NCBI GenBank assembly: GCA_944324805.1
Contig: CALUXS010000003.1
Span: 1-64,000 of the forward strand
DNA: 64,000 bases
From: an uncultured Acholeplasmatales bacterium
GTDB taxonomy: Bacteria; Bacillota_I; Bacilli_A; Acholeplasmatales; Anaeroplasmataceae
Reading direction: 5' to 3'
The first letter of the stretch is position 1. The number at the start of each line of letters is the position of its first letter. Position numbers and translations under genes: made by a program. Positions 28,312 to 30,930 of the stretch are shown one piece after another. The notes under the pieces were generated by a model. It saw nothing but the letters and a program-made list of their open reading frames with translations. It was not told where the DNA came from and did no database searches.

Positions 28312-28341
28312 AAGGTCTTTAGATTAGTTTCTAAAGACCTT
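28312..28341 (-). terminator. Hairpin after copA
   Basis: A 12-bp perfect stem, AAGGTCTTTAGA / TCTAAAGACCTT. The T-tract after it is weak on the minus strand (TTTACTATTT), so termination may be partial and allow some read-through into the ATPase gene. Confidence 0.6.
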
Positions 28342-28351
28342 ATTTGTTTTT

Positions 28352-28552
28352 TTACTTTAATCTTGCTTTATAACCTGCCTCAGTAACTGCCTCAATAAGC
28401 GCATTAGAATCTACTGCGTCACCTTTTACCTGAGCTAATTTTTTCTTTAAATTGACCTCTACCTCAGTTACACCTGAAACTTTTTTTAAAGCTTCTGTAA
28501 CATGCATAACACAATGTTTGCACATCATTCCTTCAACAATTAATTCAATCAT
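28352..28552 (-). CDS. copZ: Possible separate CopZ copper chaperone from internal start in copA
   Basis: The last 66 residues of the copA frame form a complete HMA domain: IELIVEGMMCKHC, two helices and four strands, and GYKARLK at the end. ATG at 28552 is preceded by AAGGAGG with an 8-base spacer, much better than chance for an internal codon of a membrane protein gene. Free CopZ carries Cu(I) to CopA in the cytoplasm. The simplest history is a copA-copZ pair whose intervening stop was lost. Whether the free protein is made is a prediction. Confidence 0.5.
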   Translation of the reverse strand: MIELIVEGMMCKHCVMHVTEALKKVSGVTEVEVNLKKKLAQVKGDAVDSNALIEAVTEAGYKARLK

Positions 28553-30820
28553 TTCACTTTCCTCCTTATTATTCTTTTTTATTTTGAAAAGATTTATTGT
28601 TAAAGCATTTAAAACGACAAATACACTAGAGAAACTCATTGCTAATGATCCAATCATAGGATTTAATTTTATACCATAAGAGTAATAAAATATTCCTGAA
28701 GCAAGAATTATTCCTATACAATTATAGAAAAATGCCCAAAATAAATTTCCTTTAATTGTAAATAAAACTCTTTTACTCAGACTAACTACATTAGCGACAT
28801 CAAGTAAATCAGAGCGTAGTAAAACAATATCTGCAGATTCCATTGCAATATCAGCACCACCGCCAATAGCTATACCTAAATCTGCAGTTGTTAATGCCAA
28901 TGCATCGTTTACACCATCACCAACCATAGCCACTACGCCATGTTTATTTGTATCCTTAAGTTCTTGAATGATTCTCATTTTATCTTGAGGTAAAACATCG
29001 GAATAGACATCATCTATTCCCACCTCGCTAGCAATGCTAATAGCTGTCTTTCTATTATCTCCTGTAAGCATAATTACTTTTATACCCATTTTCTTTAATG
29101 AATTAACTGCAAATTTTGAATTTTCTTTAATCGGATCTCTTAAAGCAATAATACCTAAAATGTTTTTTTCATCCATAAAAATTAGTGGTGTTTTACCTGT
29201 TTTTGCTAACTCTTCTATTACATTCTTTATTTTCTCAGTATCAATATTTAATTTATTTGCTAGTTTTAAGTTACCTGCAAAATATTTAATGCCATTTATA
29301 CTTCCACTAATTCCATATCCTTCTATACTCTCATAATCATTGGTTTTTAGAAGTTTTATATTTTTATTTCTAACATATTCAATTATAGCTTTTGCTAATG
29401 GGTGCTCAGACATGTTTTCTAAAGCATAGGCAATTTCTAACAATTTATTTTCATCATTTGTAATTACATCTACTACTACCGGTTCTCCTCTTGTAATGGT
29501 ACCCGTTTTATCTAATACAACTGTCTTAACACTATGTGCTTTTTCAAGTATTTCTGCATTCTTTATTAATAATCCATTTTCTGCTCCCTTGCCAGTGCCA
29601 ACCATAATAGCTACAGGAGTCGCTAATCCTAAAGCACAAGGACAAGCAATTACTAACACCGAAATTGCAAAATTGAATGCCAATTCGAAATTAGAGCTAA
29701 TAAATAAAAAACTAACTAAAACAATCAAAGAAATAAGAATAATAGTTGGAACAAAATAAAACGCAACTTTATCTACCAAACGCGAAATTGGAGCTTTTGA
29801 ATTAGCAGCTTCTTCTACTAGACTAATAATTGTTTCAATAGAAGAATCCTTTCCTACTTTTGTTGCCTTTAATTTTAAATATCCTGTATTTAAAATTGTA
29901 GAAGCGAAAACATTATCACCAGAATTTTTTTCTTTTGGCATTGATTCCCCTGTTAAATTTGCTTCGTTAACAGCACCATATCCGTCTATTACTACCCCAT
30001 CTACAGGAATAATTTCACCTTTTTTTACTATTATTATTTCGCCAGGTTTTACAAATTCTATTTCCCTTTTTATTTCCTTACCATCTTCGTAGACAGTAGC
30101 AAGCTTAGGAGCTAATTGGATCATTTTTTCTAAAGCTTTAGTTGTTTTTCCTTTTGATAATCCTTCTAAATACTTTCCAAGACTAACTAAGGTTAAAATC
30201 ATAGCTGCAGACTCAAAGTATAAATTGTGCATATAATTATTTACAATATCGAGATTATTATTTCCCAATCCATATCCTATCATATAAATTGCGAAAATTC
30301 CATAAACTAAAGATGCAATACTTCCAATTGCAATTAAACTATCCATATTAGGACTTTTAAAAAGCTTCTTTATACCACTTATATAATAATTTCTATAAAT
30401 GTATATAATTGGTAGTGTCAATAAAAATTGGGTAAAAGCAAACGATAATGCATTTTCAGGACCACTTAAAAAAGATGGAAGGGGAAGTCCAACCATATGT
30501 CCCATAGAAACATACATTAAGACTATCAAAAGGATAAATGAGATTATTAAATCTCTCAGTTTATTGTTATTTTTATCAATGCTTACTAATTTTTCTTCGC
30601 CTAAATAAGCCTTATAACCTGCCTTTTGAACAGCATTTTCTATTTCATTTATAGATATAGTATTGTCATCAAAATTAACAACCATTGAATTTGATAGTAA
30701 ATTTACGTTTACTTCCTTTATACCATCTAATTTTTCAACTGCATTTTGCACATGGGCCTGACATGAAGCACAAGTCATGCCTTCAACCATAAATTTCTTT
30801 TCTGTCAAAATATCACCCAC
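28352..30820 (-). CDS. copA: Copper-translocating P1B-type ATPase with an extra C-terminal CopZ-like domain
   Basis: The 822-residue protein exports Cu(I). It has an N-terminal HMA domain (Cys17, Cys20 in GMTCASC), eight membrane segments, the CPC ion site (393-395, IACPCALGLA), and the phosphorylated Asp437 in DKTGT. It also has the GDGVND hinge and, unusually, a second HMA domain at the C-terminus (757-822, Cys767 and Cys770 in GMMCKHC). A linker (KIKKNNKEESE) joins the last membrane helix to this domain. That linker encodes a full Shine-Dalgarno sequence and the next codon is ATG, so the tail can also be made as a separate CopZ. No CsoR or CopY gene is adjacent. Confidence 0.93.
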   Translation of the reverse strand: MGDILTEKKFMVEGMTCASCQAHVQNAVEKLDGIKEVNVNLLSNSMVVNFDDNTISINEIENAVQKAGYKAYLGEEKLVSIDKNNNKLRDLIISFILLIVLMYVSMGHMVGLPLPSFLSGPENALSFAFTQFLLTLPIIYIYRNYYISGIKKLFKSPNMDSLIAIGSIASLVYGIFAIYMIGYGLGNNNLDIVNNYMHNLYFESAAMILTLVSLGKYLEGLSKGKTTKALEKMIQLAPKLATVYEDGKEIKREIEFVKPGEIIIVKKGEIIPVDGVVIDGYGAVNEANLTGESMPKEKNSGDNVFASTILNTGYLKLKATKVGKDSSIETIISLVEEAANSKAPISRLVDKVAFYFVPTIILISLIVLVSFLFISSNFELAFNFAISVLVIACPCALGLATPVAIMVGTGKGAENGLLIKNAEILEKAHSVKTVVLDKTGTITRGEPVVVDVITNDENKLLEIAYALENMSEHPLAKAIIEYVRNKNIKLLKTNDYESIEGYGISGSINGIKYFAGNLKLANKLNIDTEKIKNVIEELAKTGKTPLIFMDEKNILGIIALRDPIKENSKFAVNSLKKMGIKVIMLTGDNRKTAISIASEVGIDDVYSDVLPQDKMRIIQELKDTNKHGVVAMVGDGVNDALALTTADLGIAIGGGADIAMESADIVLLRSDLLDVANVVSLSKRVLFTIKGNLFWAFFYNCIGIILASGIFYYSYGIKLNPMIGSLAMSFSSVFVVLNALTINLFKIKKNNKEESEMIELIVEGMMCKHCVMHVTEALKKVSGVTEVEVNLKKKLAQVKGDAVDSNALIEAVTEAGYKARLK
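28550..28567 (-). promoter_or_regulatory. Internal Shine-Dalgarno and start codon within copA
   Basis: AAGGAGG (28561-28567) plus 8 bases and then ATG (28550-28552), in frame with copA, at the border between the ATPase and the C-terminal HMA domain. Confidence 0.6.
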
Positions 30821-30930
30821 TTTATTTGATTATATAATGCATATTGTTTTATGTAAAGCGTTTTGCTTTTAGTTAAATTTATAATTTTTATTATTTTTAA
30901 TTATTTATTTTTAGATAATAAAAAAGGTGA

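Follow-up and report, generated by a model that had tools for sequence, protein, structure and literature searches.

The copA gene of an uncultured Acholeplasmatales bacterium, located in a stretch of 64,000 nucleotides (positions 1 to 64,000 of contig CALUXS010000003.1, hereafter the window), ends in a copper chaperone domain that has a putative ribosome binding site of its own, and the question is whether this single gene supplies both a copper pump and a free chaperone. The features discussed are collected in Table 1. The comparison with related genes makes it very probable that copA is a two-product gene, giving a CopA-CopZ fusion and, through internal initiation, free CopZ.

Table 1. Position of copA and of its predicted signals and domains in the window
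Feature	Coordinates	Strand	Basis or remark
copA, coding for a P1B-1 Cu(I) ATPase that has an HMA domain at its N-terminus and a CopZ domain at its C-terminus	28352..30808	minus	818 aa from TTG 30808
N-terminal HMA domain of copA	30611..30793	minus	PF00403, 68.9 bits
SD-like GGTGAT of the TTG copA start	30812..30817	minus	-9.4 kcal/mol
SigA-type promoter of copA, TTTACA-17-TATAAT	30829..30857	minus	11/12 consensus; consensus match only
Variable linker from last TM segment to HMA domain, holding the SD	28553..28585	minus	linker alignment and junction list
Internal Shine-Dalgarno (SD) sequence AAGGAGG	28561..28567	minus	SD and start in 157/170 fused relatives, three registers
Internal start codon ATG	28550..28552	minus	8 nt past the SD; ATG or GTG here in relatives
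Predicted internal ORF copZ	28352..28552	minus	66 aa, MIELIVEGMMCKHC...KARLK; NF047957 and PF00403
Perfect 12-bp hairpin directly after the copA stop	28312..28341	minus	likely terminator

The product of copA matches the Cu subfamily profile TIGR01511 with 546 bits (cut-off 397), and the CPC (TM6), DKTGT, GDGxND, YN and MSxxS motifs together with this profile place it among the P1B-1 Cu(I)-exporting ATPases. The first start codon of the open frame is GTG 30820, which has no SD (+2.6 kcal/mol); judged by SD energy and by the starts of the relatives, TTG 30808 is the more likely start. If the predicted promoter is used, the leader of the copA message would be very short, about 14 nt, with GGTGAT serving as the SD of the TTG start. 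The T-run of the hairpin is clear on the plus strand, where it is better than on the minus strand, and the hairpin could terminate transcription on both. Because the promoter lies just upstream and the hairpin just past the stop, copA is probably transcribed alone, its message ending with the gene. A search of the bacterium's own genome found no CsoR-family copper regulator.

A sequence-only reading had taken the last 66 codons of copA for a complete HMA domain, and the profiles bear this out: the tail scores 65.7 bits with PF00403 (cut-off 24.8) and passes the NCBI CopZ equivalog model NF047957 with 88.9 bits (cut-off 85). Both a CopZ/Atx1-type profile and an MxCxxC motif, here GMMCKHC, were found in the tail, and the closest solved relatives of the 66-residue product are copper-pump and CopZ/copper-chaperone HMA domains. 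The placing of AAGGAGG eight bases before an in-frame ATG proved exact, the SD occupying 28567-28561, the spacer AAAGTGAA 28560-28553 and the start codon 28552-28550, after which the frame runs through 66 codons to a TAA ending at 28352. The linker codons are AAT AAG GAG GAA AGT GAA ATG ATT GAA, and the SD and the in-frame start stand with proper spacing at the domain boundary.

In the proposed mechanism, ribosomes coming from the copA start would make the full copper pump with its tethered CopZ domain, while other ribosomes would bind AAGGAGG in the linker past the last membrane segment, start at ATG 28552 and produce a free 66-residue CopZ carrying Cu(I) to the pump. The existence of a free, soluble, single-domain CopZ is predicted from the SD and the start codon, initiation at the internal ATG and build-up of the small protein would be expected on the same grounds, and the binding and transfer of Cu(I) are attributed to the predicted protein from its family. 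The own genome (1.83 Mb, 96% complete) contains three HMA domains, two of them in copA and the third in a small DCANCA-type ORF adjoining a ZntA/CadA-type ATPase, and no other copZ or CopZ-type gene was found in it. In locus L003 a small DCANCA-type HMA ORF (1453-1707) has an ArsR-like regulator as its neighbour and precedes a ZntA/CadA-type ATPase; this arrangement recurs in many members of the family and resembles a separate zinc/cadmium chaperone-like gene.

Relatives were gathered by whole-genome searches in the genus, family, order, class and phylum, and a named genome collection was also scanned, which added Clostridia (sampled solely in this way), a Tissierellia and a Spirochaetia MAG. 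The final set comprised 261 Cu-type CopA genes, 170 of them with a C-terminal HMA domain, from the same class, Clostridia and one spirochaete MAG; the taxonomy of most relatives is given relative to the window, and the named loci are mostly MAGs. A fused gene was called start-bearing when it had an in-frame ATG or GTG preceded by an SD of at most -6 kcal/mol; a single anti-SD, that of a Bacillus-type 16S tail, served to compute the SD energies of every species. Genes were counted after filtering on HMA motifs, and this filter passed over at least three fused genes, which stand outside the counts: L065, with an internal start, and L118 and L312, without one. An internal ATG or GTG with a strong SD at the domain boundary was found in 157 of the 170 fused CopAs and was absent from 13, and this recurrence strongly supports the earlier proposal that one gene would yield both the fusion and, by internal initiation, free CopZ. 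In the genus a CopA was found in seven genomes, and in every one of them it is fused and has the SD. The element also occurs in cultured relatives, for example Ruminococcus albus (L205) and Hornefia butyriciproducens (L188).

The internal SD of the own gene has an energy of -11.1 kcal/mol. It is stronger than most synonymous versions of this gene, only 9.8% of which reach even -8 kcal/mol, but it is not significant alone at the 0.05 level, and significance was therefore sought among, and drawn from, the relatives. When the start nearest to 8 codons before the last HMA motif was taken by a fixed rule, regardless of the SD, and linker codons were redrawn from each gene's own usage as the null, the mean SD energy was -11.2 kcal/mol against -6.5 after synonymous recoding (z -24, all genes); for 39 representatives below 60% identity the values were -10.7 and -6.4 (z -9.8). 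For 3503 further in-frame ATGs within the same set of genes the mean was -2.0 kcal/mol. A smaller, earlier gene set gave the same outcome. By this comparison the internal SD is neither a product of chance nor a local quirk. Low RNA structure at the internal start was considered as additional support and discarded, as the difference (-2.8 versus -10.2 kcal/mol) was gone against shuffles of equal composition (z about 0).

The SD core occurs in all three codon registers, namely xxG-GA (AAG GAG G, encoding K-E-x, e.g. K-E-E) in 100 genes, GGA (AAA GGA GG, encoding K-G-x, e.g. K-G-G) in 41 and xGG-A (encoding K-R-x, e.g. K-R-K) in 6, so that the nucleotides are conserved while the amino acids of the linker change. 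The sequence-only reading had held that relatives keeping the linker amino acids and not the SD bases would speak against its proposal; what was seen is the opposite. The linkers of the fused relatives are otherwise highly variable in length and sequence. The distance from the end of the SD core to the start is mostly 6-11 nt, with a mode of 9, and an internal start residue other than Met is usually Val coded by GTG, GTG occurring in 9 cases. Taken together, the synonymous null and the three registers point to selection on the nucleotides beyond the encoded amino acids.

It could be supposed that K-E-E or K-G-G is favoured as a flexible, charged protein linker and that the SD is a by-product of its codons, since K and E are common in linkers and about 32% of the synonymous recodings also reach -8 kcal/mol. 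This is, however, highly improbable, because 92% of the start-bearing genes reach that energy at the homologous position (1.3% at other in-frame ATGs), the three registers encode different amino acids, AAG and GAG are locally enriched over the usage of the same genes (p 3e-4 and 3e-9), a start codon stands at the right distance, and the linkers of start-less genes are without an SD. Nor does the supply of free CopZ by proteolysis of the linker instead of initiation offer a satisfactory account; a long charged linker could indeed be cut, but cleavage leaves the conservation of the SD in three registers and of the start codon unexplained, and its probability can be regarded as negligible.

An SD-like site directly after the last membrane segment could also act on elongating ribosomes, slowing them to give the membrane part time to insert ahead of HMA domain synthesis, with no initiation taking place. 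Such pausing needs no ATG or GTG, yet the core mostly ends 6-11 nt before one; the SD and the start are lost together, and free copZ is often present where they are lost. Where a CopA ends in two or three HMA domains, moreover, the site shifts to the last of them, well away from the membrane: the best start lies ahead of the last domain in 10 of 14 such genes (e.g. L141, L196, L320 and L325). Pausing alone is thus very unlikely. Under internal initiation, a start before the last HMA domain means that here, too, the predicted free protein would consist of one HMA domain. Tandem C-terminal domains, two or three in number, were observed in L141, L325 and L326, and also in L196, L318-L323, L329 and L330.

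Set against the SD of the copA start, the internal SD is the stronger of the two in 83 genes and the weaker in 28; in the own gene it is combined with an ATG (-11.1 kcal/mol), versus a TTG at the copA start (-9.4 kcal/mol). Since the internal SD is the stronger one in most of these genes, more chaperone than pump would be expected, and the predicted free product may accordingly be a Cu(I) chaperone that outnumbers the pump.

The fused genes that have no internal start also have no strong SD, the best linker energy being -6.2 kcal/mol or weaker (12 genes, earlier set) versus a median of -11.1. In 9 of the 13 start-less genes a separate HMA ORF follows no more than 500 nt downstream, against 6 of the 157 start-bearing ones (Fisher 1e-8, a value that overstates the association because the genes are related). 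On the CopA tree there are about 9 independent pairs, of which on average 5.6 go in the expected direction, 0.1 in the opposite one and 3.4 are uninformative (median p 0.03). The window's own family has seven start-less members (L050, L051, L053, L056, L062, L063 and L064), each with a separate downstream HMA ORF. The tail motifs of these seven are altered to GMMCEKC, GMMCDKC, GMMCEMC or GMMCENC, as if the tethered domain had specialised. Other start-less lineages are without an adjoining copZ, namely L101/L287, L154, L200 and L118/L312, the last with an atypical DMMCNHC tail; hence free CopZ would not always be needed or kept. In L118 the 3' end of copA seems to be overlapped by a reading frame similar to a CsoR-type repressor.

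It had been suggested that the fusion is recent and arose by loss of a stop codon, and a comparison of the copA-copZ junctions in relatives had been proposed. This view of its age was not upheld: the CopAs found in six other genus members are all fused, and the fusion was found across the family and class and in Clostridia. As the arrangement spans divergent genera, families and classes, the fusion is, from its distribution, ancient and not recent. In unfused relatives copZ commonly follows copA directly, and in L078 and L079 the copA stop overlaps the copZ start (ATGA), with the SD inside the end of copA. These overlapping pairs illustrate how a fusion could plausibly have originated by loss or by-passing of the stop, and about 17 changes between the fused and unfused states were counted on the CopA tree. 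The same pairs lend some support to the view that the SD is unselected in the fused genes, since they carry it within copA. An unselected SD would decay, however, as happened in the 13 start-less genes, and the SD and start persist below 60% tail identity and in several classes, which renders this explanation improbable.

From these data it is likely that the Firmicutes CopA-CopZ fusions represent a two-product system of ancient origin and wide use, in which the ratio of free chaperone to pump with tethered chaperone would be set by internal initiation, and that this system is independent of the E. coli frameshift and has been repeatedly interconverted with a separate copZ. If this is true, many genes annotated merely as fused copper ATPases conceal a second gene, and genomes with such fusions would be wrongly scored as having no copper chaperone. 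Two unrelated translational tricks, frameshifting in E. coli and internal initiation here, would then converge on a pump and a free chaperone from one message. The set of natural gains and losses also allows one to ask why the tethered and the free chaperone are both kept. What is new, and widespread, is the combination, both the parts and the device being known already; in the open-access literature no paper on an internal start in copA or in copZ/copA-copZ fusions was found. The CopA of Archaeoglobus fulgidus is said to have a C-terminal metal-binding domain, reportedly the subject of work by Agarwal in 2010, which PMC7558416 lists among its references, and we know of no internal start described for it.

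The nearest functional parallel is the copA gene of E. coli, which gives the pump and a free HMA chaperone, CopA(Z), through a programmed -1 frameshift (Meydan 2017; Drees 2017; cited in PMC9548414 and PMC7558416). As far as those citing accounts describe it, the likeness is that a single copA serves for both the pump and a free HMA chaperone for copper, the latter predicted in the present case; the difference is that in E. coli the chaperone is the N-terminal HMA domain, released by a frameshift and an early stop, whereas the present chaperone domain is of CopZ type, lies at the C-terminus and is provided with an SD and a start of its own. When the own copA was scanned, no slippery heptamer of the E. 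coli kind was seen directly behind the first HMA domain, the only slippery heptamers being AAATTTA at codon 34, inside the HMA domain, and TTTTTTA at codon 111. The translational device itself is paralleled by Cas11, which is made from an internal in-frame start within cas8 in type I-B, I-C and I-D CRISPR systems (PMC13199841). There too the C-terminal domain of a large protein is also obtained as a free small protein by internal initiation, predicted in the case of copA, but the proteins are unrelated, and the product here is a predicted metallochaperone for the very pump to which it is fused. With the copA-copZ operons of Firmicutes, in which copZ is separate or overlapping, the gene shares the two functions, their order and an SD within or just after the end of copA; it differs in having no copA stop between them, so that the fusion and the predicted free protein would come from one frame.
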